Source: a virus. From it: 26,714 bases of DNA. Positions 10,468 to 25,513 of the stretch are shown piece after piece; position 1 is the first letter of the stretch; the number at the start of each line of letters is the position of its first letter. The stretch is from IMG/VR virus record IMGVR_UViG_3300032086_001528, positions 1 through 26,714 of that record; one strand, written 5' to 3'. The notes under the pieces are model-generated. The model searched no databases, had not been told where the DNA came from, and saw only the letters and a list, made by a program, of their open reading frames with translations. The translations under genes were made by a program, and so were the position numbers.

Positions 10468-13339
10468 GCTTGTGGTGCATGGGTGTGTAGTCACCCTCCC
10501 AAGTCATTGAGATAAACTGAGCAGGTCCAGGGTGAAGTGATTTCAATACAAGATTACAGTTTTTATTACGCTCATACACAGGGACTGTTTGAGTTTTCTC
10601 TGGAACAAACGTAGCTTCATCAGCGTCGTAGTAATCCATAGGTGTGGATTCATACGTCGTTTCGATGTGGTCTTTACCTAAGCGTTTGAGCCTGACATGA
10701 ATCTGTCCAACGGGTCCAAAACGAAGATGAACACGTTGAATAGTTAAGGAAGCAGTGACGTCAGATGTAGTAATTTCACCTGCTTTTTGTTTGACATAGA
10801 TACGAGGTAGGTTGACGTTCAGCTCAAACAACCAGCCAACGACAACAGTATCACCAGCAAAATCACCGTTGAACTTGTAAGTACTCCCGCTCCGTTGGGT
10901 CTCGTCTTCCATAAAGACTTCACCAGTGGACAGGTTGACTGCACCAAGTTTGGTTCCAGTACCTGTAAAACTATGTGAGACAGTCGTGTATGTACCGTCA
11001 TAGGAACCTGCTGTCAGAGAGACAGAGGAGTCAAGATGAACTGAGTAACCACCATCAAGAATGTTCTCGTAAAAGTTATCACCGACAACATCGCGAGAAG
11101 TATCAAGCTTCTGCAAAGCAATCTTCAACAGCTTGTAGTCACTACTAATGATGTACAGCTCGTCATCAAGTACAAACAAATGTGCAATGTTATGTGGCAA
11201 GGTCCACTTGAACCAAGCTGACTGTGCACGTTTGTCTCCAGTATTAAAGTAGCGATAACCAAAGATCTCTGCCGTACCAGACTTAGAGAAAAATATAGTG
11301 TTATTTTCTCTGCTGTTTGTCATGACGTCTAAATCATGAGGCAGCAGCTTAGGTGCAACTTTGGTTTGTTCAACCATATTGGGTTCACCTTCACGCCGAA
11401 TATCAAAGACCTCAAAGAAACGTCCGTTGACACCAGCACTGTCAATAAACCCTAAGGTTGTTCCAAGGGAGACGGGCTCAGTTTTAGGGCTGTATCTATA
11501 AGTAGATATATTCGACAGCTTACCTGTCTCAGGTGTCAGCGAATCACTGTCAGTATGCAGCAAGAACTGCTGTGTTTCTGCAAAGATAACAAGACCAGTG
11601 TTTGTTTCAATTGCAGATTTGAGCTGTGTAGGTTGAGTGGAGCTTGCTTGAATATCAATAGGATCTGATCCACCAATAACCAAAGATGATTCTTGAAAGA
11701 AATTACCTGGCTCACCTGCACGGCTCAGGATGACATTGTCTTCACATAGGAATCCAAGCCTGTTTCGGTGAAAAAATGTTTGACTAATTTTTCTCCCTTG
11801 ATTATTAGAAACAGGTGTTTTAATTAAAGAAGGAAATGGATTAGTTGTATTGTCACCAGTTTCACGTGCTACATAACTGTATGTACCTACCGTAAAGCTG
11901 CCGTCAGATTGACGTTGGATAATGTGAGGCAATGTGTTTGCATCAAGCGACGTCAAAAGACCTGGACCTTGACATTCCTCCCAACTACCCGGACCGTCAG
12001 CATTGTTGTTGCCTACAAACTTAAGATAGAAATCATCGTCAACAGAGTCAGCGCTGCTGATGACTTTGAGAATCATCCCATGCTTACACTGTCTAGGCAG
12101 TTCAGATGCATCGTTGACCTCCATAGGAGTGATGCGCCACAAGTCAGGGTTAGAAGTTTCAACAGTAAAAGGCGAATTATGCGCGAGAAATAAACCGTTG
12201 CCGATTTTTTCAACAACATTTAAATTGATTTCACCGCTGTTGACATTTGTTCCTTTTACAACCTGACTAAGAATACTGTCAGCAGAAACCTCTACATTTG
12301 CATCAAAGGAAGATGGCTGTGGTCTGAAGAATCCAAACGCTCTTTTAGCTTTGATTTCTTGTACACTTTTAACATGTACAGTATAGTTAACGTTTCGCAT
12401 CTGAACGGTAACGGTGTCGTCATTGCCTGCATTGCTACCGTCATACACTCTCCATCCATATCCACCATTCAAAAGCTCACAAGTAACGTTGTAAACACCA
12501 ACGTAGTCATTACCATTAATAGTGTCATTACCCATATTTTCACGAACAACTACCTGACAAGTAGCTGTTAAACGGAATACAAGGTTTTTACCACTGCCAC
12601 TGTTTACAGTAAATACCTCAGATGCTTGATGTTGACAGTTAGGATTGATGCCAGTTGTCCCATCACCACGGTTAATAGTTTGATAACCGTTAGGAGCATT
12701 ACCGCCGCCTGGTGTATCTACAACGATTGAAGTTGCTCTGCCTTCGCCAGAGCTAGTGATGTTTACTTCACTATCGCTAGTACTGGCAACGTTAAAGCTA
12801 TATTCTCTACCGTGAGCCAGTTGTCTAAGCTCTACAAATGCTTGGTATTTATTATCGTTAGAATCTCCAATACTTTCAGCACGGTCGTCTGAACGTACGC
12901 TTGTATTAACTGAAACCGTTTGACTGACGTTAGTAACAAACGTAGTATCAGCAATAGTCAGGAACTTGATGTCTTCGTCGTTGCTGTGTTGGAGGTAAGG
13001 AACAGCGCTACCACTGTGTGCTACATCACCAGCAGAGTCAGTTTTATTGCCGTTGCTGTCGTAGACATCATTAGCATGCCAAATCTTTACCGCACCGTTT
13101 CTTTGAACCTGACCAATGTAAGCGCCTTCACTTGCATCACGGTAATAACTAAACCAAGTACCAGTAGATGCACCAGACAAAGAGTTGATAAACCTACTGC
13201 CAGGACGCTTTACCAGACCATCCGTGATGTCAGGGATACCATTAACTAGATCTTTCACCTGTCCTGGTAGTACCAGTTCATCAGGTTGTTGTGAGATACC
13301 ACCAGTAAAACTAGGGATAGTCTGAGTAATGCTTGCCAT
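10460..13339 (-). CDS. Tail tubular protein B (T7 gp12-like nozzle)
   Basis: This 959-aa protein has the typical gp12 opening ITQTIPSFTGGISQQPDELV followed by DITDGLVKRPGSRFI, the most conserved signature of this family. It also has internal family-like blocks such as KISQTFFHRNRLGFLCEDNV and QTVPVYERNKNCNLVL. In T7 six copies form the lower tail nozzle to which the fibres attach. It is longer than T7 gp12 (794 aa), as in other cyanopodoviruses. The start overlaps the stop of tail tubular protein A by one base (TAATG), and its end overlaps the gp13-like gene. Confidence 0.95.
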   Translation of the reverse strand: MASITQTIPSFTGGISQQPDELVLPGQVKDLVNGIPDITDGLVKRPGSRFINSLSGASTGTWFSYYRDASEGAYIGQVQRNGAVKIWHANDVYDSNGNKTDSAGDVAHSGSAVPYLQHSNDEDIKFLTIADTTFVTNVSQTVSVNTSVRSDDRAESIGDSNDNKYQAFVELRQLAHGREYSFNVASTSDSEVNITSSGEGRATSIVVDTPGGGNAPNGYQTINRGDGTTGINPNCQHQASEVFTVNSGSGKNLVFRLTATCQVVVRENMGNDTINGNDYVGVYNVTCELLNGGYGWRVYDGSNAGNDDTVTVQMRNVNYTVHVKSVQEIKAKRAFGFFRPQPSSFDANVEVSADSILSQVVKGTNVNSGEINLNVVEKIGNGLFLAHNSPFTVETSNPDLWRITPMEVNDASELPRQCKHGMILKVISSADSVDDDFYLKFVGNNNADGPGSWEECQGPGLLTSLDANTLPHIIQRQSDGSFTVGTYSYVARETGDNTTNPFPSLIKTPVSNNQGRKISQTFFHRNRLGFLCEDNVILSRAGEPGNFFQESSLVIGGSDPIDIQASSTQPTQLKSAIETNTGLVIFAETQQFLLHTDSDSLTPETGKLSNISTYRYSPKTEPVSLGTTLGFIDSAGVNGRFFEVFDIRREGEPNMVEQTKVAPKLLPHDLDVMTNSRENNTIFFSKSGTAEIFGYRYFNTGDKRAQSAWFKWTLPHNIAHLFVLDDELYIISSDYKLLKIALQKLDTSRDVVGDNFYENILDGGYSVHLDSSVSLTAGSYDGTYTTVSHSFTGTGTKLGAVNLSTGEVFMEDETQRSGSTYKFNGDFAGDTVVVGWLFELNVNLPRIYVKQKAGEITTSDVTASLTIQRVHLRFGPVGQIHVRLKRLGKDHIETTYESTPMDYYDADEATFVPEKTQTVPVYERNKNCNLVLKSLHPGPAQFISMTWEGDYTPMHHKRV

Positions 13340-15507: not shown

Positions 15508-16584
15508 TTAACCGATTGCAGGAGCCTGCAGTGCCACGGGAGTTGTCTCCACGGACGCAAGATCAAGCGGGAAGTTATGTGCATTCCGCTCATGCATCAC
15601 CTCGAAGCCGAGGTTGGCACGGTTGAGAATGTCAGCCCAGGTGTTCACCACATGACCTTGACTCTCAGTAATGGATTGGTTGAAGTTAAATCCGTTGAGG
15701 TTGAATGCCATGGTGCTGACGCCGAGGGCGGCAAACCAGATACCCACGACAGGCCACGCTGCGAGGAAGAAGTGCAGCGACCTAGAATTGTTAAAAGATG
15801 CATATTGGAAGATCAGTCGTCCGAAGTAACCGTGAGCGGCGACGATGTTGTACGTCTCTTCCTCTTGACCAAACTTGTAGCCATAGTTCTGGCTGACCTC
15901 TTCAGTCGTCTCACGGATAAGAGAAGAAGTAACCAGGCTTCCATGCATAGCGCTAAACAAAGCTCCCCCAAATACACCAGCAACTCCCAACATGTGAAAG
16001 GGGTGCATGAGGATGTTATGTTCCGCTTGAAACACAAGCATGTAATTAAAAGTACCGGAAATGCCAAGAGGCATACCGTCTGAAAAGCTACCTTGTCCAA
16101 AAGGATAAACAAGGAAAACAGCAGTCGCCGCAGCAACCGGAGCAGAGTAAGCAACAAAGATCCAAGGGCGCATCCCTAGTCGATAACTAAGTTCCCATTC
16201 GCGTCCCATGTAAGCAAAGACGCCAATGAGGAAGTGGAATACGACGAGCTGATATGGACCCCCGTTGTAGAGCCATTCATCAAGTGTATTAGCTTCCCAA
16301 ATTGGGTAGAAGTGTAGTCCGATGGCATTGCTGCTCGGAACGACGGCTCCCGATATGATGTTGTTTCCCCACATGAGGGATCCCGATACGGGTTCACGAA
16401 TTCCATCGATGTCTACAGGTGGTGCTGCAACGAATGCAGTCACAAAGCAAATGGTGGCAGCCAGCAAGCAAGGAATCATGAGGATTCCAAACCAGCCAAC
16501 ATAAAGTCGATTGTTTGTTGAGGTTACCCAGGAGCAAAACTCATCCCAGGTAGACCTCTGTTGTTGTTGAAGTACAGCGGTCAT
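15508..16584 (-). CDS. psbA: Photosystem II reaction-centre protein D1
   Basis: This is a complete, apparently functional 358-aa D1. Conserved functional residues are present: the YZ tyrosine in [12 protein letters not shown], the Mn-ligand aspartate in [10 protein letters not shown], the chlorophyll and iron histidines in [11 protein letters not shown] and [13 protein letters not shown], and the Mn-cluster cluster in [16 protein letters not shown]. The last is followed by the usual C-terminal extension that is cleaved after Ala344. The residue equivalent to position 130 is Glu ([11 protein letters not shown]), as in the high-light D1:2 form. Phage psbA keeps photosystem II repaired during infection while host synthesis fails. 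The gene lies in the head cluster and is flanked by hairpins on both sides, so it may be its own transcription unit. It starts without a Shine-Dalgarno sequence. Confidence 0.99.
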
Positions 16585-17173: not shown

Positions 17174-17295
17174 CAGGAAGAAAGTGTAGTTACGGACATG
17201 TTGTCAGACTCTTCTTTTTTTTTAGCAGGTGCTTTTTTAGCAGGTGCTTTAGGTTCAGCAGGACGCTGAGTTTCTTCGTAGGGTCGTACTGTCAT
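17173..17295 (-). CDS. Small Lys/Ala/Pro-rich protein, 40 aa
   Basis: The gene begins in a TAATG overlap with the hli stop and ends in a TGATG overlap with the next gene, so translation is probably coupled. The product starts MTVRPYEETQRPAEP, contains two tandem copies of KAPAK/KAPAKK encoded by near-identical 15-nt units, and ends SVTTLSS. Such Lys-Ala-Pro tails occur in nucleic-acid-binding proteins, but I recognise no family. A run of nine A residues lies in the coding sequence. The overlapping start and stop on both sides are the main evidence that it is real. Confidence 0.65.
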   Translation of the reverse strand: MTVRPYEETQRPAEPKAPAKKAPAKKKEESDNMSVTTLSS

Positions 17296-17486
17296 TACCA
17301 AATACCAGGAATAATTTGACCAGTCAATGCATAAGCGCCCAGAGCAGCCATGACGCCCAGCATCGCGAGACGACCATTAAGCTTTTCAGCCTTTTCATTG
17401 TGGGTTTCAGTCACATCCATAATTGTCATAGGTGGTTCTTTTGCGTAGATGTTTGTGCGACCGCCGTCTTCAGTAATAGTTGTCAT
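17295..17486 (-). CDS. hli: High-light-inducible protein (Hli, one-helix chlorophyll-binding)
   Basis: This 63-aa protein has the diagnostic chlorophyll a/b-binding helix EKLNGRLAMLGVMAALGAYA followed by LTGQIIPGIW. The ExxNGRxAMxG motif supplies the chlorophyll ligands. Hli proteins sit in thylakoid membranes, bind chlorophyll and carotenoid, and protect photosystem II during assembly and light stress, which complements phage-made D1. The N-terminal 28 residues are variable and soluble. The start overlaps the scaffold stop (ATGA) and the stop overlaps the next start (TAATG). It lies between scaffold and psbA, the usual place in marine cyanopodoviruses. Confidence 0.97.
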   Translation of the reverse strand: MTTITEDGGRTNIYAKEPPMTIMDVTETHNEKAEKLNGRLAMLGVMAALGAYALTGQIIPGIW

Positions 17487-20923: not shown

Positions 20924-22311
20924 TCTTGACAGTCACATTGAGGTTCATCAGTTAGCTCCTCATTGATTAGGCTGGCAAGATAGTCTTCGACTTCAGTCTC
21001 TTCTAAGGCTGCATAAGCACTGGACTTATCTTGCACATCGCCCATCACTTGAAGCGAGTAATAAAGGGAGGTTTGCGGTGACGCCAACCACTCTTCGATA
21101 AAGGCGTTGTCGTAGGTGACAACATCACTCCAACTGTTGAAGCTATACCCGTGAAGAAGTCCCGTGCGGTTGAGCAAGGTCATGATGCCGTCGGCAACAC
21201 GCTTGTAGTTTTCCCAACCGACTTCACTAGCGATCTCTACATCGCCATAGTTATATGTTTGTACACCGAACGTGCCGCTGTCGCGGTCAACCGTCCGGCT
21301 AATAGGTGGTGCAATCTCAGGTGTAGCAGTGAAACCATCAACGTCCTTTGAGCGATAGCTACAAGACGCTGTGGGAGCAATAGCAAAGGCACGGACCATG
21401 TTGTGTACACGTGCAATGCCAGCCGCTTGTTCAATGCCAGAGGCAATAGCTACAACCAACTCATAAGCAGGAGTTCGTACTGTATTGCCGTTGTTGTAGT
21501 CCTCAAGAGCTACACCAAACTGTTCGTAAGTTACGCCGTACCGCCGTAGAAGATTGGCAAGTCCGAGCATTCCGAGTCCGACTTGTCGGTCGGTTTCGCT
21601 GGGCAGATATTCTCCTGAATCGCCGACGCCAGTTCGACCATGGAGTTTGCACAGTTCGGACATCCCTTCAGCAAAAGCTCTTGGAATGTCGTCATATTCA
21701 CAGGCAGAGAGATTGACATGCTGTAAAAGGCAGGTTCCCCGAGACGGCAGGTACACCTCAAGACAAACGTTTCCTCGAATTCGTTTTCCATCGTTGTCGT
21801 ACTTAACTTTGTTTAGCCAGATGTCACCCGACTTGATTCCGTAAAGGAGGTCCTCCTTAAACGAACACCCCTTCCACCATTCGGCGGTGATGTTGATGCA
21901 TCGTTTGACCCACGGCAACTCGGATCGAGGAGCGAGAATAAAGTCACGAGCATCAGGGTGGGATAAATCAAGGTGACAAACAATCGCACCATTCCGATAG
22001 GTCCCACCACGACGGAGGATCTCATTTAGTGTCGAATAGATTTTTGCAAAGGAGACGGGTCCGCTAGCAATGAGCTTGTCATTTCCTTTTGTTGATTCCG
22101 TTCCTTTGGGTCGCAGTTTCGACAGGTGGATCGCGCAGCCTGCTCCATTTCGTAGAGCATGACTAGCAAATTTCCAGCTTGCTTCAATTCCATTGGGACC
22201 CTCCATTGAGTCTTCAACAGTGAACACCGTGCACGACACCGGTAGCCTGGACGTTGGGTTATCCATCCAAGATTGGACACGTCCCGTGCGAGAAATATAT
22301 GAGGTGGTCAT
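20920..22311 (-). CDS. nrdA: Ribonucleotide reductase large (alpha) subunit, class I type
   Basis: This 463-aa protein reduces ribonucleotides to deoxyribonucleotides for phage DNA synthesis. Catalytic positions are recognisable: the first active-site Cys in RLPVSCTVF (C27); NVCLEVYLPS with Asn181, the radical Cys183 and Glu185; and the second redox Cys in GTCLLQHVNL (C194). Two features mark it as class I rather than class II: the adjacent tyrosines that relay the radical (SLYYSL, Y417-Y418) and a C-terminal redox Cys pair (QCDCQE). The following gene is a matching small subunit. The N-terminal ATP-cone is absent, so overall activity control by dATP is probably lost. Cyanopodovirus enzymes of this type were long labelled class II and later reassigned. 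The start overlaps mazG as ATGA. Confidence 0.93.
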   Translation of the reverse strand: MTTSYISRTGRVQSWMDNPTSRLPVSCTVFTVEDSMEGPNGIEASWKFASHALRNGAGCAIHLSKLRPKGTESTKGNDKLIASGPVSFAKIYSTLNEILRRGGTYRNGAIVCHLDLSHPDARDFILAPRSELPWVKRCINITAEWWKGCSFKEDLLYGIKSGDIWLNKVKYDNDGKRIRGNVCLEVYLPSRGTCLLQHVNLSACEYDDIPRAFAEGMSELCKLHGRTGVGDSGEYLPSETDRQVGLGMLGLANLLRRYGVTYEQFGVALEDYNNGNTVRTPAYELVVAIASGIEQAAGIARVHNMVRAFAIAPTASCSYRSKDVDGFTATPEIAPPISRTVDRDSGTFGVQTYNYGDVEIASEVGWENYKRVADGIMTLLNRTGLLHGYSFNSWSDVVTYDNAFIEEWLASPQTSLYYSLQVMGDVQDKSSAYAALEETEVEDYLASLINEELTDEPQCDCQE

Positions 22312-22691
22312 GGATTAACTAGATCGTTCAATACAGGTGGTTGATAATTAGGTCCCTTCAGGACTTTGCCGTCAACACGACGGATAGGTGTGCCATCCAA
22401 ACCAAGCTTGGACATGTTTGATTTATGGACACGGTCTAGTGCTTCCTCTAGATCCCATTCCATGTTTTCTGCATACTGAAAGCAGACATAGACAAGATCT
22501 GCCAGCTCTTTCAGTTCGTTTTCGTAGGGTTCATTGTGAAATGCATTACGGAACTCTTGGTATTCCTCATCGATCAAAGTCAGTTGCATAGTCCGGTTCT
22601 CCGAACTGTTCTGGATCCCATAGGCTGAACGGAATTGTATTGCTTGATCGCTCAGACTGTTCGAGGTGCAATGTTGTGTGGTGGAGTTCAT
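22308..22691 (-). CDS. mazG: MazG-like nucleoside triphosphate pyrophosphohydrolase
   Basis: The 127-aa product has the all-alpha NTP-PPase pattern: an N-terminal helix (DQAIQFRSAYGIQ), the metal-binding EEYQEF, then ELADLVYVCFQYAENM with the second acidic pair, and the C-terminal VHKSNMSKLGLDG common in phage MazG proteins. Such enzymes hydrolyse (d)NTPs to monophosphates, and cyanophage versions may alter alarmone or nucleotide pools. The start is uncertain. I chose the ATG at 22691 because it includes the first family helix; the longer form from 22778 adds residues that look like a shadow of the overlapping gene, and the ATG at 22589 would cut the helix off. The chosen start gives a long 125-nt overlap with the DUF3310 gene. 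It ends in an ATGA overlap with RNR. Confidence 0.85.
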   Translation of the reverse strand: MNSTTQHCTSNSLSDQAIQFRSAYGIQNSSENRTMQLTLIDEEYQEFRNAFHNEPYENELKELADLVYVCFQYAENMEWDLEEALDRVHKSNMSKLGLDGTPIRRVDGKVLKGPNYQPPVLNDLVNP

Positions 22692-22866
22692 TTTCAAGAT
22701 AATGGATAGCCTTCTTAAGGTCTTCAATCTCTGTGTGAATACTTTTGAAACCGGCTCGGCAAATATATTTAATAGCATTGCCTCGGTGATAACCTAAACC
22801 CTGATCTCTGATGAAGTCCCAGACTTCTATTTGACCTCGGGTGTAGTGGAGGGGTGATTCGGCCAC
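22567..22866 (-). CDS. DUF3310 protein (T7 gp1.7-like nucleotide kinase domain)
   Basis: The 99-aa product matches the DUF3310 pattern closely: SPLHYTRGQIEVWDFIRDQG, LGYHRGNAIKYICRAGFKS, then EIEDLKKAIHYLENEL. In T7 this domain is found in gp1.7, a nucleotide kinase acting on dTMP/dGMP, so a role in nucleotide metabolism is plausible but not shown for such a short protein. The start codon is GTG, which gives the conserved beginning and overlaps the NblA-like gene by 40 nt. The C-terminal 30 residues fall outside the domain and overlap mazG in another frame. Confidence 0.88.
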   Translation of the reverse strand: MAESPLHYTRGQIEVWDFIRDQGLGYHRGNAIKYICRAGFKSIHTEIEDLKKAIHYLENELHHTTLHLEQSERSSNTIPFSLWDPEQFGEPDYATDFDR

Positions 22867-23066
22867 TGTGTTACTAGATTGGATACGGTGTTAGCAAGGC
22901 AGAAGTTCTGCTTCTGCAACGCAAGAAAGATAGTGATGATGTCTTTCTTATCTGCTTCGGGAAGAAGATCCTCAAGCCTGCGTAGCTTGAAGCTCTGCTC
23001 CATCGTCAGATCTGTCACTGGCATCGGTGGGACACCAGGGTATGACTGATTGTTTGTCGAAGTCAT
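22827..23066 (-). CDS. nblA: Probable NblA-like phycobilisome degradation adaptor
   Basis: This 79-aa protein has a disordered N-terminus (about 19 residues, Pro-rich) followed by DLTMEQSFKLRRLEDLLPEA and a second helix DKKDIITIFLALQKQNFCLA with an amphipathic tail. The LTxEQxFxLR opening followed by a helix-turn-helix of about 60 residues is the hallmark arrangement of NblA (PF04485). NblA binds phycobiliproteins and brings them to the ClpC protease, dismantling the light-harvesting antenna. Known freshwater cyanophages carry nblA, and a marine phage form has been reported. The start could be 23066, 23024 or 23003; all lie within the end of the exonuclease gene, giving up to 95 nt of overlap. 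I rate family membership likely but unproven without a profile search. Confidence 0.65.
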   Translation of the reverse strand: MTSTNNQSYPGVPPMPVTDLTMEQSFKLRRLEDLLPEADKKDIITIFLALQKQNFCLANTVSNLVTQWPNHPSTTPEVK

Positions 23067-23742
23067 ATTCTTTGTTGGTAAGAATCTTTGCTAGTCGTGC
23101 ATTGATAAGTGCGTCGTCTTCAGTCAAGTCTTTGTCTGTGAACGCTTTAACTACTGTGTTCCAGCAGTAATCACACTCATCAAACAATGCAACAGCTCGC
23201 TTGATTCCAATACCAGGCACGCCGCTGTAGCCATCGGTCTGGTCACCAGCAAGTGTCTGAATTAGGTGCCATTGCCTGCCTTCTTCTTCAGTAATCTCGA
23301 CAAGCTCGTCCATGTTGAACAACTTGCCAGGGATTTGGCGCATGTCTTTGTCAGGAGAGACGATGACATTGCCTGGGTTGGCAGTGGCATAGATACCCAT
23401 GGCATCATCAGCTTCCAGCGTTGGCATACGAATAACTTCGTACTGCTTTGCTAGTTCTGAAATTACACGCCTGTAACCACAAGGCTTCTTTCTATTTCGA
23501 TGACCCTTGTAACTTGGATAAATTTTTTTCCTGAAATTTACAGAGTCACTAAAAAAGAGGATCATCTCCGGTACATCCCACATGAAGTGACCTTTGATCT
23601 TGGTCAGCTCACGTTGGACGTTTGTCATCGCCTCACTGAACTTGCTGACGACCATGATGACGTCGTCACCCCAGTCAATGTCTGTCTCAGCGCCTGCACA
23701 GGATTTATAGACAATGAAGTCAGCATCAATGAGTAGTTTCAT
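22972..23742 (-). CDS. 5'-3' exonuclease (T7 gp6-like, FEN/PIN family)
   Basis: This 256-aa nuclease shows the family acidic residues in order: MKLLIDADFIVY at the N-terminus, the basic arch region YPSYKGHRNRKK, EADDAMGIYA, VSPDKDMRQIPG, and AGDQTDGYSGVPGIGIKRAV with the helix-3-turn-helix DNA-binding loop. Gene 6 of T7 removes RNA primers and degrades host DNA to supply nucleotides. It directly follows the polymerase gene with an ATGA overlap, as in the T7 gene order. The C-terminal 30 residues are rich in Asp/Ala/Thr and overlap the NblA-like gene in another frame. Confidence 0.95.
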   Translation of the reverse strand: MKLLIDADFIVYKSCAGAETDIDWGDDVIMVVSKFSEAMTNVQRELTKIKGHFMWDVPEMILFFSDSVNFRKKIYPSYKGHRNRKKPCGYRRVISELAKQYEVIRMPTLEADDAMGIYATANPGNVIVSPDKDMRQIPGKLFNMDELVEITEEEGRQWHLIQTLAGDQTDGYSGVPGIGIKRAVALFDECDYCWNTVVKAFTDKDLTEDDALINARLAKILTNKEYDFDKQSVIPWCPTDASDRSDDGAELQATQA

Positions 23743-25010
23743 CAGTGGACCTCCGCCCAGTTCTTCCCTTGTTTCGCTTCTGCTGCGATTGGGACTCGTA
23801 GTTTGTAGTACTCGCCAGCCGCTGCAGCGCTATATACCAGGGATGCTGATAGGTCGTCTGCGTGGTCAGGGTGGCATTCAAATTGCAATTCGTCATGTAC
23901 AAAAGCAAGCTGTGCACAGCACAACTTTGTTGATTCAATAGTTTGTTGATTGATAAGCATCCACCGCTTCGCAACGGTGCCGGCTCCTGACTGGAGCAAG
24001 TAGTTCAAAGCTTTGTGAGGGCTGTCTAGAAGGATCTTGCGACCGTCTATCGATCGGACAAAGCCCTTCTCAGACGCCTTTTTAATTGCCTCAAGTAGTT
24101 CCGACAGTCCATCAATAGCAGATACAAACGCTTCCCTGATTTCCTTACCTTTAATCTTAGCGGTACGATCATTTAGGGAAGAGTCATAGGAATGACCGAT
24201 TTTGGCGTCACCTGCTCCATAGATGAAGGCGTAGGTAATAGTTTTGATTTGCCGCCTAGAAACTCCAACCCGGTCAGCATTCTGTTGATGGATGTCACCG
24301 TTGAGGAGAGTGTCGGCAAAAGACTCAGACCACCGGCCAAGATAATGACCAAGCATCCTGAGTTCAATACCTGCAAGATCAGCACCAACCATAATTTGAC
24401 CTGGCGAGGCTGTGAAGAGTTCTCTGAATTCATGATTACTGGGTACTTGCGCGAGATTTGGTTTGCGATGTGCACATCTGTGCGTGTTTGTAGCAACTGA
24501 ACAATGATGATGAATACGATTAGCACTCGTACATAGCTTCAGCCATGCGTTCGTGCCTTCCGAGATCATCCCCAATTTCTTTGTAATATCGAGACACTTC
24601 AGAAAATCCATAGCAATCGGTGTCCCAATATCCTTGAGAATCACTTCGTCGATGATGGGCTTCCCAGTAGGACTCATCTCCGTTGGATTCCAACCATGAA
24701 ATGTTTGCAGGATCCATGAAATATGGTCGCGAGAGGTCGGGTTTAGTTCTTTCAGTTTGGTGAAGGTACATCCCTCAACGTATCCTGATGTTTTGTTATT
24801 TCGTTTAGGAGTAAATTCCGATCCTTTAACGAAAGGGTGCCTGTTACGTAGTAGCTCACAAGTTTGCTCAAGCTCTCCTCTGAGAGTTGATGCAAGTTGC
24901 CATGCAGCCTTTGTGTCAAAGTGCCATCCATGTAGTTCTTGTGTAGTTAGTATTTGTGCAACGTCGTGCTCTAACGCGACCCAATCAGGTAGGGGTGGAA
25001 GTGATCGCAT
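23742..25010 (-). CDS. DNA polymerase, family A polymerase domain (C-terminal half of a split T7 gp5-like enzyme)
   Basis: This 422-aa ORF carries the thumb, palm and fingers of a T7-like polymerase. Motif A is VGADLAGIELRMLGHYL (catalytic D211), the O-helix motif B is RRQIKTITYAFIYGAG (R252, K256, Y260, Y264) and motif C is AFVHDELQFEC (H372, D373, E374), so the active site is complete. Tyr260 is at the T7 Tyr526 position that allows dideoxynucleotide use. The region corresponding to the thioredoxin-binding insertion in the thumb is only about half the T7 length. It lacks an exonuclease domain, which is in the upstream ORF. The ATG lies inside the last 40 nt of that ORF, in the -1 frame. Confidence 0.93.
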   Translation of the reverse strand: MRSLPPLPDWVALEHDVAQILTTQELHGWHFDTKAAWQLASTLRGELEQTCELLRNRHPFVKGSEFTPKRNNKTSGYVEGCTFTKLKELNPTSRDHISWILQTFHGWNPTEMSPTGKPIIDEVILKDIGTPIAMDFLKCLDITKKLGMISEGTNAWLKLCTSANRIHHHCSVATNTHRCAHRKPNLAQVPSNHEFRELFTASPGQIMVGADLAGIELRMLGHYLGRWSESFADTLLNGDIHQQNADRVGVSRRQIKTITYAFIYGAGDAKIGHSYDSSLNDRTAKIKGKEIREAFVSAIDGLSELLEAIKKASEKGFVRSIDGRKILLDSPHKALNYLLQSGAGTVAKRWMLINQQTIESTKLCCAQLAFVHDELQFECHPDHADDLSASLVYSAAAAGEYYKLRVPIAAEAKQGKNWAEVH

Positions 25011-25513
25011 AGTTTTTTGGTAACGTTTACATCTTGTATGCAGTAGTCCTGCATATCTTGTGACCAGCTTTGCCAGTCAGTGTCTTTCCCGAATTGACCT
25101 TTGAACTCACTTAGTCGGTAGCCATAGCTCTCAAGACTGTGACGCCCCCACATGTATGAAGGCATGTTCTTCCAACGACCTACAAACTTGCCGTCTTTAG
25201 TCTTTGGACCACGGTCAGTGTCAAGAATGTCTGTGTGATAGAGCCTAGACAACAACAATGTGTCTACAACCAAGGCGGTTGGCTCGAACCACGCATAGAT
25301 CTTTTTAAGGACAGGTATGTCATAACCGATGACATTATGTCCGCAGATAGTTTCTGCCTCTTGGAGGATTTGTACACCACGGACAATAGGTTCCTGATCA
25401 CCTTCGTCGTTGTAGACAAGGGTTTGGTCAGTCTCCGTGTCGTAGATGACAAGACAGTGAATACGGGTAACATCATCTAGAAGACCGTCACTTTCCAGGT
25501 CGAATACCAGCAT
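24971..25513 (-). CDS. DNA polymerase 3'-5' proofreading exonuclease domain (N-terminal half of a split T7 gp5-like enzyme)
   Basis: The 180-aa product aligns with residues 1 to about 190 of T7 DNA polymerase. The proofreading carboxylates are retained: MLVFDLESDG (D5, E7, the same numbering as T7), GHNVIGYDIPVL (D65) and DYCIQDVNVTK (D161). It ends HFHPYLIGSR and then stops, while the polymerase continues in the -1 frame from an ATG 40 nt earlier. A single extra base near 24975 would give a continuous sequence HPYLIGS.ALEHD that matches normal polymerases. So this is a genuine split, a programmed frameshift, or a one-base sequencing or assembly error. The start gives the conserved first residue of the family. 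Confidence 0.9.
   Translation of the reverse strand: MLVFDLESDGLLDDVTRIHCLVIYDTETDQTLVYNDEGDQEPIVRGVQILQEAETICGHNVIGYDIPVLKKIYAWFEPTALVVDTLLLSRLYHTDILDTDRGPKTKDGKFVGRWKNMPSYMWGRHSLESYGYRLSEFKGQFGKDTDWQSWSQDMQDYCIQDVNVTKKLCDHFHPYLIGSR

Follow-up and report, generated by a model that had tools for sequence, protein, structure and literature searches.

The gene and the question

What does the short reading frame wedged between the exonuclease and DUF3310 genes of this phage encode, and is it a gene at all? The frame was noticed in a virus record 26,714 bases long, the whole of which we refer to as the window, and an earlier note made from its letters had proposed that the product is NblA, an adaptor for the breakdown of the phycobilisome. 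Phage-borne nblA is known from the freshwater phages Ma-LMM01, MaMV-DC and PaV-LD. We put a probability of about 0.88 on the reading that the frame is a genuine gene, encoding a viral protein that belongs to the NblA superfamily but has diverged, in a T7-like cyanophage most closely related to phages of marine Synechococcus, with antenna breakdown through an adaptor as the likely mechanism. This matters because a phage that carries psbA and hli, sustaining photosystem II, would also carry a predicted adaptor for dismantling the antenna.

The product of the frame is MTSTNNQSYPGVPPMPVTDLTMEQSFKLRRLEDLLPEADKKDIITIFLALQKQNFCLANTVSNLVTQWPNHPSTTPEVK, and the features of the region are collected in Table 1. 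The earlier note had placed a 79-residue frame here, with an LTxEQxFxLR-type opening, a Pro-rich extension and overlaps with both neighbours, and all of this proved accurate, the frame being on the minus strand: the opening reads LTMEQSFKLR (residues 20-29), the N-terminus is rich in proline (P10, P13, P14 and P16, with P14 and P16 invariant in 35 relatives), its first 95 nt are shared with the exonuclease frame and its last 40 nt with the DUF3310 frame. A product of the plus strand over the same interval is ruled out by two internal in-frame stops (frame 1). A scan for terminators and promoters near the gene found a terminator-like hairpin at 22992-22970, inside the nblA-like reading frame, and promoter-like sites in a number at chance level.

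Table 1. Coordinates of the nblA-like gene, its parts, its neighbours and the companion photosynthesis genes in the window
Feature	Position	Strand	Evidence and remarks
nblA-like gene	22827..23066	-	79 aa, ATG start, TAG stop; Pfam NblA, PHROG phrog_27006, IMG/VR relatives, purifying selection
NblA domain, helix-loop-helix core	22872..23012	-	residues 19-65; Pfam alignment 1-47 of 50, AlphaFold2, hhalign
Proline-containing N-terminal extension	23013..23066	-	residues 1-18; entirely within the exonuclease reading frame
T7 gp6-like 5'-3' exonuclease, upstream neighbour	22972..23742	-	256 aa; Pfam 5_3_exonuc_N E=3.9e-11; PHROG exonuclease E=2.4e-66
DUF3310 protein, downstream neighbour	22567..22866	-	99 aa, GTG start; Pfam DUF3310 E=3.6e-14; PHROG phrog_236 E=5.9e-21
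ORF in the slot of a MazG-type nucleotide pyrophosphohydrolase, further downstream	22308..22778	-	position only, as in S-SBP1, S-CBP4 and others
psbA, photosystem II D1	15508..16584	-	D1 90-95% identical to Synechococcus T7-like phages and a related marine contig
hli, high-light inducible protein	17295..17486	-	PHROG phrog_178 high light inducible protein, E=9.5e-29

The window belongs with the T7-like cyanophages. Among reference genomes its nucleotide sequence is most similar to that of Synechococcus phage S-TIP37 (81% over 34% of the query); next come S-SBP1, KBS-P-1A and S-RIP2. All four were obtained from Synechococcus, and strains WH8109 and WH7803 are the hosts of these nearest relatives. 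The D1 protein shows 91-93% identity to its counterparts in S-TIP37, S-SBP1, KBS-P-1A and S-RIP2, and with a related uncultured marine contig the value is 94.7%; the exonuclease neighbour is 83% identical to its S-TIP37 counterpart, and the DUF3310 neighbour carries the name 'nucleotide kinase' in PHROGs. The DNA polymerase (window 23742-25513) lies in two overlapping ORFs, an exonuclease part at 24971-25513 and a polymerase part at 23742-25010, an arrangement also annotated in S-TIP37 and P-SSP7, which may represent a split gene or a programmed frameshift.

The reading frame is a genuine gene

Relatives of the protein are encoded in an uninterrupted frame at 72 IMG/VR loci, with 61-99% identity, and a tblastn search of phage records matched 40 records, 37 of them cyanophages or related uncultured contigs; the three remaining matches (E at least 2), among them two very weak ones from Polaribacter and Vibrio phages, were taken as chance. 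The uncorrected pN/pS, computed over 29 sequences, is 0.19 where the gene overlaps neither neighbour, 0.39 where it overlaps the exonuclease and 0.55 in the short tail. Stops number 5.2 and 3.7 per homologue on average in the two other forward frames. Low pN/pS and a conserved frame together mean that the protein is maintained for its own sake: the ORF is genuine and under purifying selection.

The gene has nevertheless been passed over, as the earlier note had expected of an ORF so easily left as hypothetical: in eight reference records it is unlabelled, truncated or hypothetical, with no feature of its own in S-TIP37, S-SBP1, S-RIP2, P-SSP3 and S-CBP3, and a truncated or hypothetical call in KBS-P-1A, S-B28 and S-CBP4. 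Its absence from several annotations comes from the overlapping exonuclease. We give next to no credence to the idea that the ORF is spurious, a by-product of the overlapping exonuclease and DUF3310 frames, since the overlap with both neighbours and the five records that omit it are outweighed by the frame kept at 72 loci and the low pN/pS of the non-overlapping stretch, which refute it.

Homology to NblA

A match to the Pfam NblA profile (PF04485), which the earlier note had named as supporting evidence, is significant (E=2e-4) though, at 22.2 bits, just below the curated cut-off of 25 bits; it is the sole Pfam match of the window protein, aligns residues 19-65 with positions 1-47 of the 50-position profile, and has E=5.3e-6 when the search is made within the window's own record. 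The S-TIP37 orthologue, 75% identical, exceeds the cut-off at 27.8-28 bits, as does that of S-SRP01, and 33 of the 35 family members match the profile (best E=4.3e-7), the next Pfam family being matched by 3 members. The window protein also matches PHROG phrog_27006 (E=7.8e-20), with its slot between the exonuclease and the DUF3310/MazG/nrd genes.

Other comparisons lead to the same family. (i) When the family profile was searched against 177,635 PDB sequences, NblA crystal structures ranked 1, 2, 4 and 5, the entries found being 3cs5 (E=1.2e-5), 1ojh, 2q8v and 2qdo. (ii) Alignment of the family with hhalign to six canonical NblAs, five from cyanobacterial genomes and one from the 3cs5 alignment, covered 56 columns at a probability of 95% (E=2.7e-8); identity over the full alignment is 14%, with helix 2 poorly conserved relative to canonical NblA. 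(iii) Against a profile of canonical cyanobacterial NblA the window ORF scores 19.1 bits, a value reached by none of 20,000 composition-preserving shuffles (best 10.2), and among the 279 frames of the window it stands far ahead of all others (E=2e-5, the next having E=1.2). (iv) The NblA motif L-[ST]-x-E-Q-x-F is present as LTMEQSF (residues 20-26); E23, Q24 and R29 are invariant in 35 relatives, F26 is kept in 33 of 35, and L64 and W68, close to the end of helix 2, are again invariant. In the alignment from the PDB search, L64 pairs with L51 of Anabaena NblA and T66 with K53, so that one of the two residues is kept; position 66 is K in 23 of the 35 relatives and T in 5, T being the residue in both the window and S-TIP37. 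Bienert and colleagues are said to have found in 2006 that these two Anabaena residues, L51 and K53, matter for phycobilisome binding.

The protein does not reach the NCBIfam equivalog for canonical NblA, NF045916 (18.3 bits, E=0.0019, against a cut-off of 100), and for this reason we file it as a diverged viral NblA subfamily. From these profile comparisons we regard its homology to NblA as secure. An unrelated small helical phage protein, resembling NblA only through a short amphipathic-helix motif, would fit the sub-threshold Pfam score of the window protein and the presence in other T7-like phages (Syn5, S-CBP42, HTVC119P) of other small ORFs after the exonuclease, which gave no NblA match where tested, as in Syn5 and S-CBP42; but such a protein would hardly account for profile searches that are specific for NblA in the Pfam scan, the PDB and hhalign, nor for the shuffle test, and the PDB ranks together with the S-TIP37 score largely refute this reading, which we hold to be highly improbable.

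Predicted structure

AlphaFold2, run with the family alignment, predicts a helix-loop-helix monomer with helices at residues 22-37 and 40-67 (mean pLDDT 80, block means in the core above 90, pTM 0.50; pLDDT is low at residues 1-5 of the N-terminal extension). The helical hairpin anticipated by the earlier note is thus borne out by the model, the call being one of secondary structure in a single chain only, without superposition on NblA coordinates. Foldseek searches of the model against PDB and BFVD returned only weak and unrelated matches; the search for solved NblA structures gave four, all with E of at least 6 and none to NblA. This search is uncalibrated because the control, an authentic NblA encoded on a viral contig (L198), was folded without an alignment as a single long helix and was therefore unusable as a standard. 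A VIA re-alignment, restricted to Foldseek's six chains, gave a best Z of 2.0, to a chain of a ribosome complex, which is uninformative.

Relation to known NblA proteins

Viral NblA of this kind is already published, and the window gene is an additional, unlabelled member of a described group. According to PMC9602691, Nadel et al. (2019) predicted the gene for S-TIM5 and for 14 isolates of cyanopodoviruses, and expression of a marine viral nblA in S. elongatus led to loss of phycobilins; Nadel et al. (2025, Nature) are reported to have tested viral NblA function, and PMC12892361 cites that work for the degradation of host light-harvesting complexes by viral NblA.

The window protein shares features with, and differs from, each of the known groups: (i) The nblA of S-TIP37 (12467-12703 of MH540083.1, unannotated) has the same slot, the same 79-aa length and the same overlap with the exonuclease, and differs in sequence only, with the S-TIP37 copy passing the Pfam cut-off. 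The slot is common to the window, S-TIP37, S-SBP1, S-RIP2, S-CBP1, S-CBP3, S-CBP4 and others. (ii) Cyanobacterial NblA, as represented by PF04485 and the four crystal structures, shares the L-[ST]-x-EQ-x-F opening, the two helices and a similar core length, whereas the window protein is longer, with a proline-rich N-terminal extension and a W-P-containing tail, and has a diverged helix 2. (iii) The NblA of the freshwater cyanophages is likewise phage-borne, but it belongs to other phage types and to PHROG 23930 rather than 27006; its relative L198 matches phrog_23930 and is much nearer to the Pfam NblA profile, and the window protein touches phrog_23930 weakly (E=0.025). (iv) The homologues of P-SSP7, P-SSP3, NATL1A-7 and P-GSP1 occupy the same slot as in the window, and those of P-SSP7 and NATL1A-7 also fall in PHROG 27006 but have two extra residues in the loop between the helices and are extended at the C-terminus.

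Both PHROG 27006, the marine T7-like type, and PHROG 23930, the freshwater type, are listed as being of unknown function; L198, an NblA that hits phrog_23930, matches Pfam NblA with E=1.9e-20, and both groups could be labelled NblA.

Proposed function

By analogy with characterized NblA, the window protein may dimerise, bind ClpC and phycobiliproteins, and cause bleaching. After infection the small protein would form helical-hairpin dimers, which would bind the phycobiliproteins of the host phycobilisome through residues near the end of helix 2, in the neighbourhood of the invariant L64, and would hand them to the host ClpC-Clp protease through the conserved segment around LTMEQ near the N-terminus. 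Dismantling of the antenna would free amino acids for phage protein synthesis and lower the light input, and the psbA and hli of the phage would meanwhile protect photosystem II. According to a second proposal, NblA uses mimicry to loosen the rods (PMC4103541; PMC7966870).

Host range and the homologues in Prochlorococcus phages

In a survey of 24 whole phage records both the family profile and PF04485 were run, the latter at a permissive threshold (E<=1). PF04485 matched in eight, every one a phage of Synechococcus. S-TIP37 and S-SRP01 exceed the cut-off, S-RIP2 and S-SBP1 fall just short of it, and S-CBP4, DSL-LC07, S-CBP1 and S-CBP3 match more weakly (E 6e-5 to 1e-3), three of these last four matches spanning only 16-19 profile positions. 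S-B28 and S-RIP1 have the family gene and no PF04485 match; the S-RIP1 homologue (L165, NC_020867.1 34755-34978) is split over two reading frames, either a sequencing error or a broken gene. Five further records, P-SSP3, P-SSP7, NATL1A-7, P-GSP1 and P-SSP2, carry a homologue by the family profile (E 1e-34 to 5e-14) and gave no PF04485 match, nor did the four that were rechecked as single proteins. Recorded hosts are MIT9312 for P-SSP3, Prochlorococcus for P-SSP7 and MED4 for P-GSP1; the P-SSP2 record (L168) lists Synechococcus WH8017. Pfam-negative homologues in the same slot were seen at L074:2995-3303, L076:2001-2273, L168:1474-1782 and L170:1480-1704.

Within the same 24 records neither profile matched P-SSP10, 9515-10a, NATL2A-133 and SS120-1, or the Synechococcus phages S-TIP28, Syn5 and S-CBP42. 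A profile match in the Pelagibacter phage HTVC119P (E=0.002), with three internal stops, was taken as chance. The T4-like S-SCSM1 was matched by neither profile despite the distant nblA published for it (PMC9602691), and both profiles can therefore overlook very distant copies.

Prochlorococcus has neither phycobilisomes nor nblA orthologues (PMC7439483), and the earlier note had named, among the grounds on which its proposal would be refuted, a close homologue in phages whose hosts are without phycobilisomes. Such homologues exist, those of P-SSP7, P-SSP3 and NATL1A-7 being about 50% identical to the window protein, but in them the Pfam match is lost, whereas the near relatives of the window protein, at 67-75% identity, infect phycobilisome-bearing Synechococcus; the proposal is weakened by this and not refuted. 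That Prochlorococcus phages keep the homologue suggests that the conserved function may in part be independent of phycobilisomes. On the simplest reading, phages of hosts with an antenna to attack retain the NblA-like sequence, and in phages of hosts without one it drifts or is retargeted. Since the sample is small, the phages are phylogenetically non-independent and the hosts are isolation hosts only, we take this host pattern as a lead rather than a demonstrated correlation.

The same homologues raise the alternative that the protein descends from NblA but now serves as a Clp adaptor for host proteins other than, or besides, the phycobilisome, with the forms in Prochlorococcus phages fully retargeted. 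This would agree with their occurrence in phages of a host that lacks the antenna, and with their retention of the N-terminal half of the motif (T-x-E-Q) and of the A-L-Q-x-Q segment despite the loss of the Pfam match. We nevertheless think it unlikely for the window protein, which, like all its close relatives in Synechococcus phages, still matches NblA, and the published marine phage NblA bleaches S. elongatus, according to PMC9602691. An antenna-breakdown adaptor remains our preferred reading. A broader and more tentative idea, doubtful but worth stating, is that the phage NblA of this lineage may be a retargetable Clp adaptor, directed at phycobiliproteins in Synechococcus phages and at other host proteins in Prochlorococcus phages, and that the Synechococcus form may also remove targets outside the antenna.

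Search for a host donor

PF04485 matches were found in 5 of 151 host-family genomes centred on Synechococcus sp. RCC307, one of them over the cut-off, so that in most possible hosts Pfam detects no NblA. A divergent nblA-like gene, which Pfam may overlook, has been reported from the marine Synechococcus WH8102 (PMC7439483). No recent host donor of the phage gene was found among the 151 genomes, because the only match to the phage-family profile, in genome G033, is itself a T7-like phage contig. On this contig (G033:C3; ORF at L197:1420-1707) the DNA polymerase, the exonuclease, the NblA-like ORF and a MazG-type ORF follow one another in the same order; the NblA-like ORF is about 30% identical to the known phage copies, and the contig is probably a distant T7-like cyanophage binned with a picocyanobacterial host genome.
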